NCBI GenBank assembly: GCA_024276275.1
Contig: JAJRXM010000043.1
Location: 1 to 34,046, forward strand
Origin: Candidatus Zixiibacteriota bacterium
Lineage (GTDB): Bacteria > Zixibacteria > MSB-5A5 > GN15 > FEB-12
Direction: 5' to 3'
Length of the DNA stretch: 34,046 nt
Below are positions 8,630-34,046 of the stretch, piece by piece (the stretch's first letter is position 1; every line of letters starts with the position of its first letter). The notes beneath the pieces are model-generated. The model was not told where the DNA came from and ran no database searches. It saw only the letters and a program-made list of their open reading frames with translations. The position numbers and the translations under genes were made by a program.

Positions 8630-9643
8630 TTACTCCTGCTTAGGCAGTTTTACCGAGTCTAAAATCTTTGTGATGATTTCCATAATATCGATACCGTCAG
8701 CCTCGGCATTAAATGATGTTACAATACGATGCCTAAGCACAGGATAGGCCGCAAAGCGAACATCTTCCGGTCCCGGAGTCGGACGACCCTCAAGCACAGC
8801 TTTTGTTTTTGCAGCTAAAATCAAATATTGCGATGCTCTCGGTCCCGCACCCCAATTGACCCAGTTTTTGATATAGTCAAAGGCGTTTTCTTCTTTCGGG
8901 CGGGTCGCACGGACAATATTTACGGCATATTCAATCAGATGGTCTGAAACTGGAACCCTGCGAATTAGTTTTTGGAAATTGATAATATCATCTGATGATA
9001 GAATTTTATTTATTTGAAAACCTGAATCAGCTGTAGTTGCTTTTACAATTTGATGTTCTTCTTTTGCCGAGGGATAGTCGACCATGATATTAAACATGAA
9101 CCTGTCAAGTTGAGCTTCTGGAAGGGGATAAGTACCCTCTTGTTCTATCGGGTTTTGAGTCGCCAGCACAAAAAACGGTTCGTCGAGCTTGAATGTTTCA
9201 CCCGCTGCGGTAACCTCATGCTCCTGCATTGCCTGAAGTAAAGCAGCCTGAGTTTTTGGAGGTGTACGGTTTATTTCATCAGCCAAAACAATATTGGCAA
9301 ATATAGGACCTTTTACAAAGCGAAACTCTCGTTTGCCTGTCGTGTGGTCCTCCTCGATTATTTCTGTACCGGTAATATCGGAGGGCATTAAATCGGGAGT
9401 AAACTGAATACGATTAAAATTTAAATTGAGGACCTGTGCCAAAGTTGAAATCAACAATGTTTTTGCAAGCCCCGGAACACCGACCAACAAACAATGCCCT
9501 GATGAAAACAAAGAGATAAGCAGTTGTTCGACAACTTTATCCTGTCCGATAATTACTTTGGATACTTCGGTTCTAATTTGTTTATATGCTGATTGTAAAT
9601 TTTCCACCGCTTGTAAATCGTTTTGGTTGCCGTCAGCCGTCAT
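8630..9643 (-). CDS. MoxR family AAA+ ATPase
   Basis: A 337-residue AAA+ ATPase of the MoxR class, which works as a chaperone-like hexamer with VWA-domain partners such as DUF58 proteins. Walker A is GVPGLAKT (residues 55-62), Walker B is IVLADEINR with D122-E123, the AAA_3 hallmark NRTPPKTQAALLQAMQE follows, and sensor 1 is ATQNPIEQEGTYPLPEAQLDRF. The C-terminal lid carries the WGAGPRASQ motif. A GAGGAA ribosome-binding site lies six bases before the ATG. Its natural partner, the DUF58 gene, is downstream but separated by several inserted genes. The candidate origin region lies immediately upstream. Confidence 0.96.
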   Translation of the reverse strand: MTADGNQNDLQAVENLQSAYKQIRTEVSKVIIGQDKVVEQLLISLFSSGHCLLVGVPGLAKTLLISTLAQVLNLNFNRIQFTPDLMPSDITGTEIIEEDHTTGKREFRFVKGPIFANIVLADEINRTPPKTQAALLQAMQEHEVTAAGETFKLDEPFFVLATQNPIEQEGTYPLPEAQLDRFMFNIMVDYPSAKEEHQIVKATTADSGFQINKILSSDDIINFQKLIRRVPVSDHLIEYAVNIVRATRPKEENAFDYIKNWVNWGAGPRASQYLILAAKTKAVLEGRPTPGPEDVRFAAYPVLRHRIVTSFNAEADGIDIMEIITKILDSVKLPKQE

Positions 9644-9659
9644 GTAAATTTCCTCTTTT

Positions 9660-9985
9660 ACTATAAAAAATCATAAATTAAAACGGTATTATTTTTTAAC
9701 ATAAAAATAATAAATAATTATGAACCGTTTATACACATATCAGATTTTATACAAAAAGTATAAATAATAAGTTGAAAAAATGTCAGAAATTGATCCACTG
9801 CTTAAACGAAACAGCCTAAACACAAATCTAACACCAACTTAATCTGACATGTCATGCCTATATCTTTGTGGATAAACAGAAAGTGTAATCTTTTTAACAA
9901 CAAGTTAACATTAGAGGGAGCAACGAGTTATAGGGTTATCCACAAAATATAACTGTTTTCCACATTACCCCCAAGTTGTCAACAA
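9660..9985. other. Candidate chromosomal replication origin (oriC)
   Basis: A 340-base gene-free stretch between moxR and the bactofilin gene. Four nonamers fit the DnaA-box consensus TTWTNCACA: 9729-9737 (TTATACACA, plus), 9867-9875 (TTATCCACA on the minus strand), 9936-9944 (TTATCCACA, plus) and 9956-9964 (TTTTCCACA, plus). The portion 9661-9780 is strongly AT-rich and could be the unwinding element. parA, parB, parS sites, rsmG, mnmG, mnmE, rnpA and rpmH, typical origin-proximal genes, lie within 10 kb. Against it: the gene run to the right is transcribed towards this region, so it would be head-on to the rightward fork. No other open frame is visible here. Confidence 0.55.
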
Positions 9986-10405
9986 CTAATAGGACGAGTC
10001 CTCTTCAGAGCTAACTACCGATTGATTATCATCAGGGGCTAAAAACCCAAGATTCGGTTTGGTGTCTTTCATATTGCAGGCACCGCAAAAAACAGCTCCC
10101 TGTTCAATTACCAATGATTTGGTGCGAAGATCACCTTCCATCTCACATTTGGCCTGCAGCTCGATTTTTTCAGATGTAACTACATTGCCAATCATTTTTA
10201 CGGCAATAATAGCAGTATCTGCTTCGATTTCTGCTTCCACTATTCCTGTGGAACCGACTGTTACGCAGTCAGTACAGATTATTTTACCTTTGACCGTGCC
10301 GTCTACACGGAGTGCCCCCTTGATTTCTAGAGTGCCGTTAATGACGGTGTCTTGACCGATAATTGTGTTCATAAGTCCGTCCGTTTCATTATTTTTTTTC
10401 ATCAT
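9986..10405 (-). CDS. Bactofilin (polymer-forming cytoskeletal protein)
   Basis: A 139-residue bactofilin, a protein that self-assembles into nucleotide-free filaments through a right-handed beta-helix and organises local cell-wall synthesis. The central part, about residues 15-110, shows the family's repeating hydrophobic ladder (DTVINGTLEIKGALRVDG, then TVKGKIICTD, then EGDLRTKSLVIEQG). Short polar tails flank it. It begins with two ATG codons and starts one base after the stop of the M23 peptidase gene, an arrangement repeatedly seen for bactofilins and the LytM peptidases they localise. The gene is the last of the parA-parB-M23-bactofilin run. Confidence 0.95.
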   Translation of the reverse strand: MMKKNNETDGLMNTIIGQDTVINGTLEIKGALRVDGTVKGKIICTDCVTVGSTGIVEAEIEADTAIIAVKMIGNVVTSEKIELQAKCEMEGDLRTKSLVIEQGAVFCGACNMKDTKPNLGFLAPDDNQSVVSSEEDSSY

Positions 10406-10406
10406 T

Positions 10407-11171
10407 TTAGTAACCTAACGGATCTATAGGTTTATTATTTATTCTCAATTCATAATGCACATGCGGTGCGGTAGATTTCCCGGTATTACCCGACAATGCT
10501 ACACGCCCACCTGCTAATATATTGTCTCCAACCTCAACTAACAACTCTTTATTATGTCCATAGACAGTTGTTGTAGAATCATTATGTTCGACAACTACCA
10601 TATATCCATAAGTCGAATCAAAGTCGGCATATAAAACAATACCTTTTGCCGTTGCCAAAACCGGAAGACCTTCAGCACAGGCTATATCTACACCCGGGTG
10701 AAAATGAGCTCCTTCTTCCGCAATAAAATCCTGCGAAATAAAACCGGTTATCGGAAGTCCCGAGGGCATCGAAAAATCAGTTGTGTTACTTCTTGGAACT
10801 AAAGCATTTCTTGATTTATCAAATGATGCAAACAATGTTGAATCATCCGGTAATTCCGGAAATGAAATATCTATTCCTGCAAGTTTTGTCAAACGGGTAA
10901 CAATGTCGCGTGCTTCAATCAAATTCTTTTCCAATAACTGTACTTTATACTGATATTTCACTAATCGTTCATTTTCTTTTTCAAATGCATCCGCCTCGGC
11001 AGCTCTGGTAACAATCTTTCCATAAAAAAGAAAAAAAACAATTATTGACACTTGTAGCAATATAAAAAAAGTAACTACAAACTTAAAAAACCATTGACGA
11101 ATCCGAATACCTTTTCGGTTTTCGGTACCGTCGGGAATAAGCATTAAAGTATAGTATTTTGGTTCAGCCAT
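10407..11171 (-). CDS. M23 family (LytM-type) metallopeptidase, membrane-anchored
   Basis: A 254-residue peptidoglycan endopeptidase. A short basic cytoplasmic tail precedes one membrane segment (about residues 29-50), then a coiled coil (about 60-95) and the periplasmic LytM domain (about 140-254). Zinc ligands are all present: H158 and D162 in HFHPGVD, and H239 in HVHYE with H237 as catalytic partner, plus H206 in VYGHNKEL. It should therefore be an active peptidase rather than a regulator. The bactofilin gene follows after one base; parB precedes it by four. Bactofilin-bound LytM enzymes shape curvature, stalks or poles in other bacteria, so a local wall-remodelling role is inferred. Confidence 0.94.
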   Translation of the reverse strand: MAEPKYYTLMLIPDGTENRKGIRIRQWFFKFVVTFFILLQVSIIVFFLFYGKIVTRAAEADAFEKENERLVKYQYKVQLLEKNLIEARDIVTRLTKLAGIDISFPELPDDSTLFASFDKSRNALVPRSNTTDFSMPSGLPITGFISQDFIAEEGAHFHPGVDIACAEGLPVLATAKGIVLYADFDSTYGYMVVVEHNDSTTTVYGHNKELLVEVGDNILAGGRVALSGNTGKSTAPHVHYELRINNKPIDPLGY

Positions 11172-11175
11172 TTAC

Positions 11176-12024
11176 TTATTGTTCAATTTTTTTAAATAAT
11201 TCCAACATTCGTTCTAAATCTTCATCGGTATAATACTCAATCTCTATTTTTCCACGTTTTAACCCGGGAGTTATTTTTACCGATGTACCCAATAACCGTT
11301 TCATATAATTTTCAACTTCAATCAAAGCAGGGATTTTTCTTTTTGGTATCAGTCTTCTTTTCTTCTGTTTTTTAGTAACCGATTCTACCTGACGTACAGA
11401 GAGAGAGTTATTAACAATTTGGTCGGCTACTGTAAGCATTTCGGTTTCTGTTGACAACGAAAGGATTGCACGGGCGTGTCCCTCGGTCAATTTACTTTCT
11501 CTTAGCATCTGTTTTACCTGTACCGGAAGCCCCATCAGTCTCATAGTATTTGCAACAGCGGTTCTGCTTTTTCCGACCCGGTCAGCAAGTTCGTTTTGTG
11601 TCAGTTGACATTGTTCAAGCAGATGTTTATATGCTTCGGCAGTTTCAATCGGATTTAAATTTTCACGTCGAATATTTTCAATTAATGCCAGCTCAAGCAT
11701 CCGTGTGTCGGATACATCGTTCATTAACATAACAGGTACTTCGGTAAACCCGGCAAGCTTTGATGCTCGGTAGCGTCGTTCACCTGCGATAATTATATAT
11801 CCGTTACCGTTTTGTTTTACAACCAAAGGCTGCATCAGTCCGTTCTCTTTTAATGATCGGGCAAGCTGCTGCAATGCCTCTTCATCAAATTGTTGTCTCG
11901 GTTGTTGCGGGTTAGGAGCGATTTGACTAAGAGGAACCTTGCGGTATTTATTCTCTTCTGTTTTTGTATCGGTGTCATTTGGTATTAAAGCACCGAGACC
12001 TTTTCCTAGGACAAGTTTACTCAT
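11176..12024 (-). CDS. parB: Chromosome-partitioning protein ParB
   Basis: A 282-residue ParB/Spo0J. The N-terminus has the KGLGALIP motif that stimulates ParA, the CTP-binding ParB domain contains GERRYRA (81-87) and ENIRRENLNPIE (116-127), and a helix-turn-helix (LTQNELADRVGKSRTAVAN, 141-159) should recognise parS. The C-terminal 45 residues form the dimerisation domain. It overlaps the parA stop by four bases (coupled translation). Two parS sites are found nearby at 13343 and 15880. ParB loads as a CTP-dependent clamp at parS and organises the origin domain. Confidence 0.97.
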   Translation of the reverse strand: MSKLVLGKGLGALIPNDTDTKTEENKYRKVPLSQIAPNPQQPRQQFDEEALQQLARSLKENGLMQPLVVKQNGNGYIIIAGERRYRASKLAGFTEVPVMLMNDVSDTRMLELALIENIRRENLNPIETAEAYKHLLEQCQLTQNELADRVGKSRTAVANTMRLMGLPVQVKQMLRESKLTEGHARAILSLSTETEMLTVADQIVNNSLSVRQVESVTKKQKKRRLIPKRKIPALIEVENYMKRLLGTSVKITPGLKRGKIEIEYYTDEDLERMLELFKKIEQ

Positions 12025-12776
12025 TGTGCCAGAACCTCCTTTGTCAATGACATATAGTTTTCAGCACCTGTTGAAAGAATATCATATAGAATAATCGGCT
12101 TACCGAATGAAGGTGCTTCTGATAGACGAACATTTCTGGATATCACCGTGTCATATACTTTTTCATTAAAATACTTCCGTACTTCATCAGAGACCTGTCT
12201 TGATAAATTCAAACGACCGTCGTACATAGTCAAAAGGACACCCTCGATTTTTAACGACGGGTTCAAATTATTTTTGACAAGCTCTATAGTGTTGACCAGT
12301 TGAGACAGACCTTCCAAGGCATAGTACTCGCATTGTATCGGGATGATTATAGAATTTGATGCAGTCAATGTGTTGATAGTTAAAATGCCGAGCGATGGCG
12401 GGCAGTCTATAATTATATATTCATAATCGTTGTCAACATGGGTCAATGCACTCTTTAAACGGGATTCACGTGAAATCATATTGACCAGTTCTATTTCGGC
12501 ACCGACTAATGAAATAGATGACGGTACAATATTTAAATAACCCAGCTCTGTTGACTGAATAACTTCGTGAATTGATTTATTTCCAAGCAGAACATCGTAG
12601 ACAGAAAGCTCTATGTCTTTTTCCAGCCCGATACCGCTGGTCGAGTTTGCCTGTGGGTCCATGTCGATTAAACAGGTTTTATGTTCGGCGGCGGCTAAAC
12701 AGGATGAAAGATTAACGGCGGTGGTTGTTTTACCTACTCCGCCTTTTTGATTCATAATTGCGATAATTTTTGCCAC
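12021..12776 (-). CDS. parA: Chromosome-partitioning ATPase ParA (Soj)
   Basis: A 251-residue ParA/Soj ATPase without the N-terminal HTH of plasmid types, as is typical of chromosomal ParA. The deviant Walker A is KGGVGKTT (11-18), with the signature Lys; Walker A' is CLIDMDPQANST, and Walker B is YIIIDCPPSLG. ParA dimers bind the nucleoid and segregate ParB-parS complexes. It is the first gene of the parA-parB-M23-bactofilin run; the 92-base gap to rsmG upstream is AT-rich and could hold a promoter. Confidence 0.97.
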   Translation of the reverse strand: MAKIIAIMNQKGGVGKTTTAVNLSSCLAAAEHKTCLIDMDPQANSTSGIGLEKDIELSVYDVLLGNKSIHEVIQSTELGYLNIVPSSISLVGAEIELVNMISRESRLKSALTHVDNDYEYIIIDCPPSLGILTINTLTASNSIIIPIQCEYYALEGLSQLVNTIELVKNNLNPSLKIEGVLLTMYDGRLNLSRQVSDEVRKYFNEKVYDTVISRNVRLSEAPSFGKPIILYDILSTGAENYMSLTKEVLAQ

Positions 12777-12868: not shown

Positions 12869-13468
12869 TTATTTTGTGATTAGAGAAAAGTATTTATCAA
12901 CAGAACCCGGACTGACTGAATAAGAATAAGTTACAACCGACAAAGAGTTATCAACAATTGTAAATTCCGGCTTATGATAGTATATAAAAATTGATGATTT
13001 ATGCATGTTTTTTAAAATTTTTGTCAAAAGTCGATTATTCAGTTTAACTAATCGCATACTGACTAAATCAAACGGTTTTTCAAATTTACATTCTTCAAGC
13101 TGTTTGTATAGAACCGTAATGTTTTTTAGTTCTAAGGCATCATTCATTCTAATCAACGAATCTGCTTTTTTACCTATTCTTTCGATAAGCACACTCTCTT
13201 TTACGTTCTGCGTGAGAATGATTGGCAACGACGGCAGTCCTCCTCCGGATCCTATATCCATATAATGCGAAAAGTTATTTTGCTCTATATATTCAAAAGG
13301 AAGTAACGATTCTGCGGCAAGCTGCGGAAGCATGCTGTTGATTGTTTCACGTGAAACAAGGTTGAGCTTTTCGTTTTCAATGCGAAGAATATCGAAGTAT
13401 GATGCCAGCCTGTTATCTGAATCATGCTTCTTGAGTATTAAATCAATGTCTAAATGAATCTTTTCCAA
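12869..13468 (-). CDS. rsmG: 16S rRNA (guanine527-N7)-methyltransferase RsmG
   Basis: A 199-residue RsmG (GidB), which methylates N7 of G527 in 16S rRNA using S-adenosylmethionine. The SAM-binding loop is MDIGSGGGLPSLPI (70-83), and NEKLNLVSRETI (32-43) is the usual N-terminal motif. The VSRET part is spelled by a perfect parS palindrome, as in many bacteria. It follows mnmG by five bases, the classical gidA-gidB order. The C-terminal part is somewhat shorter and more diverged than in E. coli. Confidence 0.93.
   Translation of the reverse strand: MEKIHLDIDLILKKHDSDNRLASYFDILRIENEKLNLVSRETINSMLPQLAAESLLPFEYIEQNNFSHYMDIGSGGGLPSLPIILTQNVKESVLIERIGKKADSLIRMNDALELKNITVLYKQLEECKFEKPFDLVSMRLVKLNNRLLTKILKNMHKSSIFIYYHKPEFTIVDNSLSVVTYSYSVSPGSVDKYFSLITK
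13343..13358. promoter_or_regulatory. parS site 1 (perfect)
   Basis: TGTTTCACGTGAAACA, an exact match to the 16-bp consensus palindrome of bacterial parS, extended by one further matching base pair on each side. It lies inside rsmG, where it encodes VSRET, within 2 kb of parB. Confidence 0.95.
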
Positions 13469-15879: not shown

Positions 15880-15895
15880 GGTTTCACGTGAAACG
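15880..15895. promoter_or_regulatory. parS site 2 (14 of 16)
   Basis: The 14-bp core GTTTCACGTGAAAC is a perfect palindrome; only the two outermost bases differ from the parS consensus (G and G for T and A... on the two ends). It lies in the 35-base gap between mnmE and the DinB-like gene, 2.5 kb from site 1. Confidence 0.85.
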
Positions 15896-19392: not shown

Positions 19393-19693
19393 TAATTTGC
19401 TCAAATGAAGCTCGTTTACCGGCAACTTTTGGAAGAATTGCTATATGGTAATCAGATTGTAAAGACTGATTATTTAAGCGAATTGCCTCTTTGTATAATC
19501 GTTTTATCCGGTTTCTTTCAACTGCGTTGCCAAGTTTTCTGCCTACCAAGACAGCGTATTTAAACTCATCGGCAACTCTGTAAAAGAGTAAAAAACAATC
19601 CCCGGACAACTTATGACCACTTTTCAGAAGATCGTTAATAGCGACCTTGCTCTTGAGGCTTTTCTTCCCGGGGAGTTTATTTCTTACGAGCAA
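19346..19693 (-). CDS. rnpA: Ribonuclease P protein component
   Basis: A 115-residue RnpA that binds the RNase P RNA and helps remove 5' leaders from pre-tRNAs. The family motif [23 protein letters not shown] (about 51-73) carries the conserved RNRIKR helix. The N-terminus [22 protein letters not shown] is a normal RnpA start, and no ATG precedes it, so the TTG at 19693 is taken; this overlaps rpmH by 17 bases. Such an overlap of rpmH and rnpA is known in some lineages and suggests coupled translation. Confidence 0.93.
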
Positions 19694-19829
19694 CTTTAAC
19701 GGTTAATCTTTTTCTACCTTTAGCACGACGACGGGCGAGGACTCTTCGTCCGCCTTTTGTCGACATACGTGCTCTAAAACCGTGGTCATTTAACTTCTTA
19801 CGGTTTGATGGTTGAAACGTTCTTTTCAT
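19677..19829 (-). CDS. rpmH: 50S ribosomal protein L34
   Basis: A 50-residue L34 found by reading the minus strand from the ATG at 19829: it begins [12 protein letters not shown], continues with [20 protein letters not shown] and ends RKK before TAA at 19677. It is highly basic, as expected, and slightly longer than the 44-46 residues typical of the family because of a C-terminal basic tail. AAGGAAG serves as ribosome-binding site. It overlaps rnpA by 17 bases. dnaA, often divergent from rpmH, is absent: the divergent gene is a methyltransferase. Confidence 0.96.
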
Positions 19830-22217: not shown

Positions 22218-22421
22218 TTTGTAAATCTCCTGTGTTATGAATTTAGATACTTATAAAATATAATATGCATCTGTTGTAGTTCGCAATCACTTTTTAGACA
22301 AATAAGAACTATAATTCTACAAAGAGTGTGATAAGGTATTTTACAGTATTAACTTATGTAGCTGTTTATATCTTAGTTTTTTTATCTGCTTGACAAACCC
22401 ATCACTATTTTGCTCTTTCGC

Positions 22422-22958
22422 ATGATGACTAAAGGCATACAATATATATTAACAGCAACACTTTTTTTTACTCTTATGAATATAGGGGTAAAATATCTGC
22501 ATAATATCCCTGCCTATGAAATTGTATTTTTTCGTGCATTGGTTTCACTTGTTGTTTGTTACGTCATGATTAAAAAGCAAAAAATATATCCATGGGGGAA
22601 TGATAAAAAAAATCTATTGCTGCGTGGTATTTTTGGAACCTCCGGTTTGCTAATGTATTTTTATACAATACAACAGATGCCGCTAGCCTCGGCAGTTACT
22701 ATACAATACCTTTCACCGATTTTTACAATTATTATAGCAGGCTTTATGCTCAAAGAACAGCCAAGACCTATTCAATGGTTGTTTTTCCTGCTATCATTTT
22801 CGGGAGTTATAATGATTAAAGGTTTTGACCCGAGAATTCTACCGGTTGATGTTGTCATCGGAGTATCTGCTGCAGTTTGTTCCGGGTTTGCTTATAATTT
22901 TATTCGGAAACTCAAAAAGAGTGATCATCCGTTAGTCGTAGTTTTGTATTTTCCGTGA
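22422..22958 (+). pseudogene. EamA/DMT family transporter, 5' part (in-frame TGA)
   Basis: N-terminal portion of a ten-helix drug/metabolite transporter. The first EamA repeat is complete: ILTATLFFTLMNIGVKYL, EIVFFRALVSLVVCYVMI, MPLASAVTIQYLSPIFTIIIAG and the start of the second repeat (VVIGVSAAVCSGFAYNFIRKL). The frame is ended by TGA at 22956-22958, right after VVVLYFP, a point where homologues continue without a break. A TTG at 22410 extends the frame slightly; the ATG pair at 22422-22427 is preferred. Reading continues in the same frame in the next entry. The substrate is unknown. Confidence 0.85.
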
Positions 22959-23261
22959 GTAACGGTTCCGGTTGTCGGGATTTACACTATGTTTAACTGG
23001 GTCAGACCTGAGCTTTTGGATTGGTTAATATTATTAGTTGTTGGAATAGCAACGACGATTGCACAAATATATATGACCAAAGCATACCAACTTGAAAGAG
23101 CCTCTAATGTCAGCAATTTTAATTATCTTGGTTCTGTTTATGCACTTCTTGTAGGATATTTTTTGTTTGGAGAATCAATAGGAATACTCGGATTATCGGG
23201 TATGGCTGTTATTTTTATAGGAGTGCTTTTATCGGCACGGTTTAAAACAAAAACGATATAA
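22959..23261 (+). pseudogene. EamA/DMT family transporter, 3' part (same frame, after TGA)
   Basis: The frame immediately after the TGA reads VTVPVVGIYTMFNWVRPELL and then the last membrane helices of the second EamA repeat: LILLVVGIATTIAQIYMTKAYQLERAS, NYLGSVYALLVGYFLFGE and GLSGMAVIFIGVLLSARF. With the first part it forms one gene of about 280 codons, the normal length. No frame change is needed; one substitution (for example TTA to TGA) explains the break. An ATG at 22989 could give a short product but has no ribosome-binding site. A terminator overlaps the TAA stop. Confidence 0.85.
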
Positions 23262-29849: not shown

Positions 29850-29957
29850 ACCACTCCTGCACAGTCCTGTATCTCAGCAAAAAGACTTGTATTAAAGATA
29901 ATATATGCCTATATTATCTACTTAAACCCAATTCAATAAATAAATTTAGGAGTTTTG

Positions 29958-32639
29958 ATGTCTTTAGAAGCAGGTAAAACACTCGGTCCATATGAAATTA
30001 TTGAACAAGCCGGTGCCGGTGGTATGGGTGAGGTTTACAAAGCCAAAGATACTCGTCTTGACCGTATTGTTGCTATAAAAGTTCTTCCTGCAACTTTTGC
30101 CTTAAACGAAGATATCAAACAACGCTTTGAACGCGAAGCAAAAACTATTTCATCGTTAAACCATCCCAATATCTGTACCCTTTACGATGTCGGAAAACAA
30201 GATGGCTTAGACTATCTCGTCATGGAATTTATCGAGGGCGAAACGTTATCGGAAAAAATAAAAAAAGGTCCGATTCCGATGAAAGAGTTTCTGGAAATCT
30301 CTATTCAGATTGCCGATGCTCTGGACAAAGCTCATCGCCAAGGACTTATTCATCGTGATTTAAAACCCGGCAATATCATGCTGACCAAATCAGGTGCCAA
30401 ACTATTAGATTTTGGTCTTGCCAAAATGCATCTTGATAACTCAGCTCCGGGAGTTCAATCTATCACACAAACTACACCGCTCACAGGTGTCGGTACACTA
30501 CTCGGCACGATGCAGTACATGGCTCCTGAACAACTTGAGGGTAAAGAAGCTGATAGACGTTCCGATATATTTTCATTCGGTGCGGTGATGTATGAAATGG
30601 CGACCGGTACTAAAGCATTTGGGGGTGGTTCACAGGCGACGCTAATTGCTTCTATATTAAAAGATGAACCAAAATCTGTTTCGGAAATCTCCCCTCAACT
30701 CCCTCCTTTACTTGAGCAGGCAATCTCACAATGTATCGACAAAGACCCTGAACAACGATGGCAATCGGTCGGTGATTTAAAACGTTCCCTGCAATGGATA
30801 GCCGATGGCAAAGTAGGTTCTCATAGCCATGGATTAATTCCTCAGAACCGTTCGACTCGTGAAACAATAATCATGGTCGGGATGATATGTTTCTTCTTAG
30901 TTTCTGCTACTCTTCGATATTTGTACTTTACATCAGACAATGCAACGAAGCAGACAGTGCGAGCAGTTATAGTTCCTCCAGCCAATGCCGAAGTGCAGTC
31001 ATTTGGTGGTGGACATATTTCTATTTCGCCAGACGGAACAAAACTAGTTTTTCTTGCCGAAGATACTGCAACAGGTGATAATCTTTTGTGGGTACGACAA
31101 TTAAATTCTCTGTTGGCAGTTCCACTACAGGGTACAAAAAATGCTGAATATCCGTTTTGGTCACCAGATAATAGGTATATCGGATTTTTTGCTGACAGTA
31201 AAATGAAAAAAATTCCTGCTATAGGTGGACCTGTTCTTACTTTGTGTAACACAGAAGGTAATCCTCGTGGAGGAAGTTGGAACAGAGATAATATTATTCT
31301 TTATACACCAAGTATTGATGATCCGATTTATAAAGTATCGGCAGCAGGTGGAGAACCTGTAGCTGTAACTGAGATGGACACAACTTTAAATGAAAACTCA
31401 CAACGGTTCCCTGAGTTTCTTCCCGATGGTAATCATTTTATATTTTTCTCAAGAGTAAGTGGTGGTAATGGAGGCGAAAGAGATGCAGTCTGTTTAAGTG
31501 CTCTTAATGATCCAACTGTCCATCGTCTTTTTTTAGCGAAGTCAAATGCGATCTATGTAGATGATTACATTTATTATATGCGTGATAATTTTTTGAGGGT
31601 ACAACCATTTGATGAAAACTCATTTGAATTGACTGGTGATCCATTTCCAATAGCAGAAGAAGTTATTTTTGTAGATAGATTTAATAAAGGTTCATTTACT
31701 GTTTCAAAAAATTCAGAACTATATTATGAAAAGGGAATTGCGACAGATGGTTCTTTACTGTTAATTAGAAATAGAAATTCTATTGAAGTTGATACAGTAT
31801 TAAGTGGTGAGTTATATTATTCGGCAGAATTTACTCCAGATGAACAGACTATTGCGATTACGTATGTAGAAGATGCTAATTCAGATGCAGATGTTTGGTT
31901 ATATGATTTTAATCGAACTAATAAAACTCGATTTACTTTTGAAAAATCTGCAGATTTTTTACCTATTTACACTCCTGATGGTACTCATATTGTCTATGCA
32001 TCCAACAAATTAGATACAGCAAATGGTTTTCAGGATTTATTTATTAAGGATGCTAATGGAATCAAACCAGAATCTTTGCTTATAGCAGATGATAAAAAAG
32101 TTATTTTCCCATGTTCATTTACACCTGATGGTAGAACACTGATTTATTCTATCTTTAGTAAATCAGCTAATACATTATGGGCGCTTGATATGGAAACTGG
32201 TGAGACAGAATCTATATTTGATTCTACAGAAGAGGTTTCTTGGGGAATGATATCGCCAGATGGTCGATGGTTAGCCTATCAGCTCAAAAAAGATAATAAA
32301 GATGCTGTATATATAACAACATTTCCAAAACCATTGGGTAAATGGCAAGTATCCAAAGGTGTAGGTTATTTTACAAGATGGAACCAGAATGGTAAAGAAT
32401 TATTTTATATGAATGACAATAATGAACTTTGTGCTGTAGATATAAATGGTGAGTCAGATTTTCTGAAAAGTGGAAAAATAAAACCAATGTTTCAAATGAA
32501 TCCACTTGTTCCGGGTACAGCTTATGTTCCGTTTAATGATGGTGAACGATTTATTACATTAGAAAATTTTGGTGCTGTGAGCGAAAATAAAATTATCTTT
32601 GTACAGAACTATAAACAAGAATTTATAAACAAACAATAA
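29958..32639 (+). CDS. Receptor-like Ser/Thr protein kinase with TolB-type beta-propeller
   Basis: A protein of 893 residues. The kinase domain (about 10-280) is complete: glycine loop GAGGMGEVY, Lys41 in AIKVLP, HRDLKPGN with catalytic D134, DFG at 151-153, and APE at 189-191. One membrane helix (about 303-324) follows, and the remaining 570 residues form a periplasmic WD40/TolB-like beta-propeller with repeated SPDGTKLVF, SPDNRYIGFF, TPDGTHIVYAS and SPDGRWLAYQ blades. It is thus a transmembrane sensor kinase of the PknB type. The ATG at 29958 has an AGGAG site; a TTG three bases earlier is less likely. A close paralogue follows after 10 bases. The ligand is unknown. Confidence 0.93.
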   Translation: MSLEAGKTLGPYEIIEQAGAGGMGEVYKAKDTRLDRIVAIKVLPATFALNEDIKQRFEREAKTISSLNHPNICTLYDVGKQDGLDYLVMEFIEGETLSEKIKKGPIPMKEFLEISIQIADALDKAHRQGLIHRDLKPGNIMLTKSGAKLLDFGLAKMHLDNSAPGVQSITQTTPLTGVGTLLGTMQYMAPEQLEGKEADRRSDIFSFGAVMYEMATGTKAFGGGSQATLIASILKDEPKSVSEISPQLPPLLEQAISQCIDKDPEQRWQSVGDLKRSLQWIADGKVGSHSHGLIPQNRSTRETIIMVGMICFFLVSATLRYLYFTSDNATKQTVRAVIVPPANAEVQSFGGGHISISPDGTKLVFLAEDTATGDNLLWVRQLNSLLAVPLQGTKNAEYPFWSPDNRYIGFFADSKMKKIPAIGGPVLTLCNTEGNPRGGSWNRDNIILYTPSIDDPIYKVSAAGGEPVAVTEMDTTLNENSQRFPEFLPDGNHFIFFSRVSGGNGGERDAVCLSALNDPTVHRLFLAKSNAIYVDDYIYYMRDNFLRVQPFDENSFELTGDPFPIAEEVIFVDRFNKGSFTVSKNSELYYEKGIATDGSLLLIRNRNSIEVDTVLSGELYYSAEFTPDEQTIAITYVEDANSDADVWLYDFNRTNKTRFTFEKSADFLPIYTPDGTHIVYASNKLDTANGFQDLFIKDANGIKPESLLIADDKKVIFPCSFTPDGRTLIYSIFSKSANTLWALDMETGETESIFDSTEEVSWGMISPDGRWLAYQLKKDNKDAVYITTFPKPLGKWQVSKGVGYFTRWNQNGKELFYMNDNNELCAVDINGESDFLKSGKIKPMFQMNPLVPGTAYVPFNDGERFITLENFGAVSENKIIFVQNYKQEFINKQ

Positions 32640-32649
32640 AGAGTAATAT

Positions 32650-34046
32650 ATGAGTCTTGGAGCAGGTAAAACACTCGGACCGTACGAAATAATAGAACAA
32701 GCCGGCGCCGGTGGTATGGGTGAAGTTTACAAAGCCAAAGATACTCGTCTTGATCGTATTGTCGCTATAAAAGTTCTTCCTGCAACTTTTGCCTTAAACG
32801 ATGATATCAAACAACGCTTTGAACGAGAAGCAAAAACTATCTCATCGCTCAACCATCCCAATATCTGCACTCTTTACGATGTCGGCAAAAATGACGGTTT
32901 CGATTATCTTGTTATGGAATTTCTCGAAGGGGAAACTTTGGGTGAAAGATTAACAAAAGGACCTATCCCTTATGATGAAATGCTTCAGATTGCGATTCAA
33001 ATTGCCTCTGCTTTAGAAACAGCTCACGGACAAGGGATGATTCATCGTGACTTAAAACCCGGCAATGTCATGCTAACTAAGGACGGTGCCAAACTATTAG
33101 ATTTTGGGTTAGCAAAATACTCTGTAGATTCATCAACACCCGAGGCTCTGACCGCAGCGGTAACTCAAGAAACACCTCTTACCGGAGTCGGTACAATTCT
33201 TGGAACAATGCAGTATATGGCACCGGAACAGTTAGAAGGAAAAGAAGCTGACAGTCGTTCTGATATATTTGCTTTTGGTGCATTGCTCTATGAAATGACA
33301 ACCGGTAAACGAGCTTTTGAAGGAACTTCGCAAGCAACACTTATTGCCGCTATTATTGAAAGAGAACCTGTTTCAATTTCTGTAGTTATTCCGACTACAC
33401 CACCTCTGTTTGAACGAGTTGTAAAAAAATGTCTTTCCAAAGACCCTCAAAAAAGATGGCAATCAGTTGTAGATTTACTCGATGAACTTAGGTGGATTTC
33501 ACAAGCAGGTTCACAAGTAGGTCTGCCGCTTCATCTTTCTAAAAGACGGAAAGTCAAATTTACTATTGCTCGGGTTGTAGGTGCGGTGGCTATTATGATA
33601 TCTTTAGTTCTTAGCTATTTACTTTTTATGCAACCGAAGGAGGAAGTTTTTACCAATCGGTTTATCATGTCTCCTTCAAATGAGATTGATGAAATTCGTT
33701 CTATAAGTTGGTCGCGAATTTCTCCAAATGGACGGTTGATTGCATTCCGTGCTACCGACAGTCTTGGAGTAAATATGCTATGGATTCGCCCACTTAACTC
33801 ATTAGAACCATATCCACTCAGAGGAACTGAAAATATCCGTCGTCAATTTCGGTCGCCGGACTCTAAATATCTTGCTTTTTTTAAAACAAACCAATTGTAT
33901 AAAATTCCGGTTGCTGGCGGTCCTGCACAACTAATATGTGAAGCTTTAGGTTTTGACGGCAACTGGGGGACAGCAGGATATATATTGTTTGATGGTAATA
34001 CCGGTGATACTTTAAAATTTGTTTCTGCTTCAGGTGGTACTCCCCA
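32650..34046 (+). CDS. Second receptor-like Ser/Thr protein kinase (3' end beyond window)
   Basis: Open from the ATG at 32650 to the end of the window (465 codons). It begins MSLGAGKTLGPYEII and has all kinase motifs: GAGGMGEVY, AIKVLP, IHRDLKPGN, DFGLAK, APEQLEG. A membrane helix near residues 305-326 and the first blades of a propeller (ISPNGRLIAFR, SPDSKYLAFF) follow. The first 130 codons are nearly identical at DNA level to those of the preceding kinase, whereas the parts after the membrane helix differ strongly. The pair is tandem and probably co-transcribed. Confidence 0.93.
   Translation, partial: MSLGAGKTLGPYEIIEQAGAGGMGEVYKAKDTRLDRIVAIKVLPATFALNDDIKQRFEREAKTISSLNHPNICTLYDVGKNDGFDYLVMEFLEGETLGERLTKGPIPYDEMLQIAIQIASALETAHGQGMIHRDLKPGNVMLTKDGAKLLDFGLAKYSVDSSTPEALTAAVTQETPLTGVGTILGTMQYMAPEQLEGKEADSRSDIFAFGALLYEMTTGKRAFEGTSQATLIAAIIEREPVSISVVIPTTPPLFERVVKKCLSKDPQKRWQSVVDLLDELRWISQAGSQVGLPLHLSKRRKVKFTIARVVGAVAIMISLVLSYLLFMQPKEEVFTNRFIMSPSNEIDEIRSISWSRISPNGRLIAFRATDSLGVNMLWIRPLNSLEPYPLRGTENIRRQFRSPDSKYLAFFKTNQLYKIPVAGGPAQLICEALGFDGNWGTAGYILFDGNTGDTLKFVSASGGTP

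Follow-up and report, generated by a model that had tools for sequence, protein, structure and literature searches.

The window analysed here is a stretch of 34,046 bp that makes up one entire contig (C7) of a 3.39 Mb genome assembled in 100 contigs. The label Zixibacteriota used for its phylum rests on relatives only: the named relatives of its ParB protein come from Candidatus Zixiibacteriota, a 'Calditrichaeota' bin and candidate division GN15, along with two distant matches. The region of interest is a gap of 342 bp (9644-9985, 73% AT) between a MoxR-type AAA ATPase gene (moxR, 8630-9643, minus strand; PF07726, E 1.8e-64) and a bactofilin gene (9986-10405, minus strand; PF04519, E 2.2e-24). 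On the same strand follow an M23 peptidase gene (10407-11171; PF01551), parB (11176-12024; TIGR00180, PF02195 and PF17762) and the adjoining parA (12021-12776), whose matches to ParA/MinD-type ATPases lie below the curated cut-offs. A perfect parS, TGTTTCACGTGAAACA, is present at 13343-13358, and a second parS-like site with 2 mismatches at 15880-15895. The rpmH gene (19677-19829, minus strand) was identified by its translation. The gene neighbours (MoxR, bactofilin, M23 peptidase, ParB, ParA, RsmG, MnmG, MnmE, YidC, YidD, RnpA and rpmH) were all confirmed after an earlier sequence-only reading of the window. The conserved parS at 13343-13358 sits within the rsmG coding sequence. Elsewhere in the window, a transporter gene (22410-23261, DMT type by eye) is apparently broken up, perhaps through a frameshift, with one ORF at 22410-22958 and another at 22989-23261, and positions 29955-34046 hold two serine/threonine-kinase-like genes in tandem, with beta-propeller-like tails by eye, the second of which is cut by the contig end. 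No Rfam matches were found in the window, and a described RNA family was rejected on that basis.

The window contains seven matches to the DnaA-box pattern TTWTNCACA. Four of them are clustered in the gap within 236 bp (9729-9964). Two of the four, box 1 (9867-9875, minus strand) and box 2 (9936-9944, plus strand), are perfect copies of TTATCCACA; box 3 (9956-9964, plus strand) reads TTTTCCACA, and the outlying box (9729-9737, plus strand) reads TTATACACA. Four boxes within any 236 bp were reached in 0 of 1000 dinucleotide-preserving shuffles of the window, one of which gave three boxes, and in 0 of 20,000 when only the AT-rich gap was shuffled. The four-box cluster pointed out by the sequence-only reading is therefore real and beyond chance. 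A chance origin is ruled out by these shuffles together with the reversed-pattern control given below. The AT-rich block that had been noticed beside the boxes holds for the window gap but is not a conserved feature, the AT content being 44-49% in several relatives.

Comparison of 24 loci, namely the window, three genus relatives and twenty loci from families f1-f4 of the order, shows which of the boxes are conserved. In these loci box 1 is inverted, box 2 follows about 68-70 bp on and box 3 lies 20 bp further, while single boxes vary. The conserved boxes are the three at 9867, 9936 and 9956, which together form one element (9867-9964, plus strand) captured both by a strict pattern and by a sequence model, R1; the box at 9729 is a genus-level feature, seen in 3 of the 4 genus loci. 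Model R1 was built from 22 of the 24 loci (alignment A1). Two loci, L030 and L036, were left out for a missing anchor, and their genomes (G010 and G018) both match R1. In alignment A1, box 1 contributes invariant TGTG-A-AA columns, and two further motifs are kept in the spacer between boxes 1 and 2: a TTA(A) near its centre (9905-9908; column A43 nearly invariant) and a CAANNNNTTA-like motif left of box 2 (9921-9930; consensus ACAA..A.TTA). IHF and/or Fis sites are features of datA and DARS2 of Escherichia coli; by eye, the motif left of box 2 is only a partial match to the IHF consensus.

The strict triplet pattern has exactly one match in the genome of the window and exactly one match each in 24 of 132 genomes of the phylum; the reversed pattern, used as a control, has 0 matches in all of them. 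With a cut-off of E ≤ 0.01, model R1 matches 103 of the 132 genomes, its 22 training genomes included. In 94 of the 103 the best match is 35-351 bp past the bactofilin domain match, right next to that gene and with its relative orientation unchanged. The nine exceptions are G101, G102, G099, G068, G069, G105, G088, G047 and G024, the last four being weak matches. In the same search of 132 genomes the element was not detected in families f8, f15 and f16 or in most of f19. That a DnaA-box element lies near the par genes is genuine, and the element is strongly conserved and mostly present in a single copy. One genome (G057) has two strong triplet copies: its single contig (C1) carries parB, bactofilin gene and triplet in duplicate, at about 714 kb and about 1620 kb, and its dnaA was not found. 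In family f7 the R1 matches (G068, C24:13886-13984; G069, C78:6922-7005) fall 1.7-1.8 kb before the dnaA domain match instead of beside the bactofilin gene; either the element relocated to dnaA in this family, or the dnaA boxes there have the same geometry.

The triplet is independent of moxR and of the bactofilin gene, and it mostly lies near a parS. In the window the perfect parS is 3.5 kb away, and in 21 of the 24 loci a parS with at most 2 mismatches is found 3.4-3.7 kb from the element, so that DnaA boxes lie at the parS region in a centromere-associated arrangement of the Caulobacter type. Among the remaining three loci, the distance is 6.6 kb in L035 and was not computed in L036, and L043 has no parS. 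In the three f12 genomes the bactofilin gene is absent and the triplet still stands beside parB, at 66 bp (G099), about 1.07 kb (G101) and about 0.94 kb (G102). Conversely, in family f18 (G123 and G124) the element shares a contig with the bactofilin gene, and parB is on a different contig. Among 20 further genomes, seven (G131, G062, G109, G067, G122, G119 and G099) have moxR within 1.3 kb in the arrangement of the window, it is 6.9 kb away in G101 and 482 kb away in G106, and it is missing from an ample contig flank around the element in G123, G124 and G096. The other genomes carry moxR on a different contig or gave no close match to it.

These data bear on the possibility that the boxes form a DnaA-controlled promoter or a read-through control region for the moxR-DUF58 genes. 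DnaA acts as a transcription factor elsewhere, and in each of the 24 loci read, as in the window itself, moxR lies downstream of the gap. However, the distance between box 1 and moxR ranges from about 117 to 1377 bp, whereas the bactofilin-side end stays close, and the element is kept where moxR is 482 kb off or absent from its flanks, as well as in f18, where it remains by the bactofilin gene apart from parB. Because the triplet persists where moxR or the bactofilin gene is lost, it is not simply a moxR promoter; a pure moxR promoter is ruled out by the variable distances and the moxR losses. Control of the moxR-DUF58 genes in the wider sense appears quite improbable.

The sequence-only reading had proposed the gap as oriC, partly on the grounds that the usual site at rpmH-dnaA shows no box cluster. 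The gap upstream of rpmH indeed contains no DnaA boxes, and dnaA is not beside rpmH in the window. The sole dnaA of the genome is on another contig (C71), so that the window gave no means of judging the usual site. On C71, 8 boxes are found in 3489 bases, a number reached in 0 of 200 shuffles. A second and denser box cluster next to dnaA, which the same reading had named as an observation that would speak against its proposal, is therefore present. Two relatives within the genus (G002 and G003) have dnaA on the contig of the element, 27-29 kb from it. For most relatives the distance between dnaA and the element is tens of kb, in one direction or the other, and it reaches up to 1.6 Mb in G030. 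On C71 an ORF (L001, 2879-3373) that precedes dnaA by about 0.5 kb resembles, by eye, a REP-associated (IS200-like) transposase; dnaA may be flanked by mobile DNA, which may bear on its varying position.

The dnaA-dnaN gap was compared in 14 of 15 dnaA loci, leaving out L023, which has a partial DnaA-like match. In all 14, the same place holds a tandem pair of box-like 9-mers, then a short spacer, a YTA-repeat whose quality varies and an AT-rich stretch (consensus TTATCnACATTTCAACAGnnCTTATTATTATTATTTTnTATATATATA). As laid out in the cited passages on the basal unwinding system, tandem boxes, a short spacer, DnaA-trios and AT-rich DNA follow each other in this order (PMC8287927). Strict DnaA-trios beside a box were found in 5 of the 14 dnaA-dnaN gaps versus 3 of 560 shuffles, in 0 of the 24 element gaps and in 0 of the 14 regions upstream of dnaA. 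Most predicted bacterial origins, though not all, have such trios. The least stable 40 bp lie in the dnaA-dnaN gap and not in the element gap in all 11 genomes that have both; in the element gap these 40 bp vary in place, and there is no positionally fixed AT-rich block. No parS was found in the 14 dnaA loci. When a model of the dnaA-dnaN module (R2) was compared with 23 genomes outside its training set, at least 12 of them had a match beside dnaA, some with weak E-values (G087, G043, G037, G075, G076, G061, G062, G119, G122, G093, G070 and G096, from families f1, f2, f5, f8, f9, f10 and f17). Among the matches listed, down to E 0.27, none was seen next to dnaA in the other 11. In most of the 14 loci the region upstream of dnaA has a conserved CTTGACG and a TGTTA-then-box arrangement, which probably represent a promoter and autoregulatory boxes.

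The proposal that the element is oriC is not supported by this comparison, since the unwinding module is found at 14 of 14 dnaA loci and trios at 0 of 24 element gaps. Its defenders could still argue that the triplet is the origin with dnaA elsewhere, as in E. coli, the boxes flanking dnaA being autoregulatory and the dnaA-dnaN motif being a dnaN promoter or a relic. First, the element is a DnaA-box cluster beyond chance, and no other cluster of at least three TTWTNCACA matches occurs across 279 kb of G032 or in the stretches sampled from G039, weaker dnaA-linked clusters existing as well. Second, one strict match per genome and a wide spread in the phylum would suit an origin. Third, the R1 match of family f7 is placed shortly before dnaA. 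Against this, DnaA-trios and a fixed AT-rich block are absent at the element, the canonical module sits at dnaA-dnaN, and the element goes undetected in three families (f8, f15 and f16). The remaining argument comes from GC skew, which cuts both ways.

A clear skew was available from three relatives, G032, G009 and G039. In these genomes the cumulative G-C minimum lies on the rpmH side of the element, at 28.8 kb, 18.5 kb and 32.9 kb, respectively, and dnaA lies at +57.8 kb, -16.7 kb and +215.7 kb from the element. The distance between the minimum and dnaA is thus 29 kb, 35 kb and 183 kb, so that the element is nearer to the minimum than dnaA in G009 and G039 and equally near in G032, which is in favor of an origin at the triplet. 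Another minimum, nearly as deep, is present in G039 near +180 kb. The switch expected at an origin is accordingly near the element (18-33 kb), in partial agreement with the original proposal, but it is not at the element in any of the three. The skew is flat in G018, no usable switch was found in G022, G031 and G019, and in the single-contig genome G030 the coarse skew is scrambled, with several sign changes. Among the matches listed, no gene is common to all skew switches. Neither the element nor dnaA is at the skew switch, and skew does not settle the origin.

Skew does help with another point. The sequence-only reading had remarked that the run of neighbouring genes is oriented towards the proposed origin and that this needs explaining. 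In the 10 kb right of the element the skew at four-fold sites is -0.10, -0.15 and -0.20 (G032, G009 and G039), and it is negative also left of the element. Because the skew in the rpmH-parB run has the sign of a left replichore in the three clear-skew relatives, its orientation is no longer odd: forks seem to run leftwards through it. The same skew counts against an origin at the triplet. Positions of dif-like sites in single-contig genomes were also considered. The distances of the element and dnaA to dif are contradictory between genomes of one genus. In addition, the bactofilin gene of G075 is in two parts 1.4 Mb apart, one next to parB at 391.7 kb and the other next to the element at 1827 kb, which points to rearrangement or misassembly. 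For these reasons dif positions were dropped as evidence either way.

Taken together, the lack of DnaA-trios and of a fixed AT-rich block, the skew minimum 18-33 kb off and the canonical module at dnaA-dnaN suggest that the element is probably not oriC. An origin at the triplet with dnaA elsewhere, as in E. coli, therefore seems somewhat unlikely. A related possibility is that the origin of Zixibacteriota is this triplet of rigidly spaced boxes, set apart from dnaA and lacking both trios and a fixed AT-rich block, and that the trio-bearing dnaA-dnaN module is a second or vestigial origin, mobile on the chromosome; we consider this unlikely. On balance we lean towards the reading that oriC lies at dnaA-dnaN and that the element in the window is a conserved DnaA site outside oriC, close to the origin and located at the centromere. 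The chief doubt about the reading we favor is the skew, as the block of the element is as near to the minimum as dnaA, or nearer. In addition, the distance and variable position of dnaA relative to the element, up to 1.6 Mb in G030, are odd for an origin. The 11 of 23 further genomes in which no R2 match was seen next to dnaA, among matches down to E 0.27, and the perfect trios in only 5 of 14 dnaA-dnaN gaps also speak against this reading.

If oriC is indeed at dnaA-dnaN, replication would start there, the tandem boxes, DnaA-trios and AT-rich block serving as the unwinding module. The three boxes of the element, one inverted and two in tandem, have spacings of about 70 bp and 20 bp, close to whole numbers of helical turns. 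They would offer DnaA a docking place where the parAB-M23-bactofilin run ends, at a distance of 3.5 kb from parS. Such a docking place would most likely act by keeping DnaA near the origin and centromere. Being copied early in each round, it could sequester or process DnaA once initiation has occurred, and it might also pass DnaA to the ParABS proteins. The arrangement seen in the sequences is compatible with titration following early duplication, with control of the nucleotide state of DnaA and with coupling to ParABS.

Examples of DnaA sites outside oriC that control initiation come mainly from a few model bacteria. One rigid DnaA-box triplet kept beside parS across an uncultured phylum would be a rare case of an old, segregation-linked and origin-proximal DnaA site, and the triplet and the dnaA-dnaN module together provide a testable origin map for the phylum. 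The element is not described in the titles and abstract openings of open-licence literature on oriC or DnaA in Zixibacteria, on boxes at bactofilin or moxR genes and on non-oriC boxes near parS.

Several known systems share features with the element. In Escherichia coli, according to the passages cited, DARS1 and DARS2 share a three-box core and the spacing of datA is constrained (PMC4585315). Like them, the element is a non-coding DnaA-box group of fixed layout outside oriC, where 'outside oriC' rests on the assignment of oriC to dnaA-dnaN. A DARS- or datA-like role, with the element resetting or hydrolysing the DnaA-bound nucleotide, would be a specific form of the reading favored above and does not exclude it. 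The three boxes at fixed spacing and the conserved spacer motifs are consistent with such a site; the cited passages cover E. coli only, the comparison is one of box layout alone, and the element here is linked to parABS. E. coli is not known to have parABS. We thus regard a DARS- or datA-like function as doubtful in this specific form. E. coli also has DnaA boxes enriched near its origin, which the passage cited describes as suited to titration (PMC12371093); that is a density trend, in contrast to the discrete element here. In Bacillus subtilis, deletion of six oriC-proximal DnaA-box clusters leads to early initiation (Okumura et al. 2012, as summarized in PMC5295017). These clusters are outside oriC as well, but the present element is mostly one copy with a fixed internal geometry and a fixed neighbour. 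The oriC of B. subtilis offers a second parallel, as the dnaA-dnaN gap of the phylum has the same order of parts as the basal unwinding system described there (PMC8287927), unlike the window element, which is without trios. Finally, the centromere of Caulobacter, where parS and Cori are about 8 kb apart, has DnaA boxes in its parS region, and a link between initiation and partitioning was proposed for them (Mera et al. 2014, as summarized in PMC6399470). In both cases DnaA sites are present at the parS region close to the origin, the difference being that the element described here, known from its sequence, is a triplet of fixed spacing downstream of parAB and bactofilin across much of a phylum.
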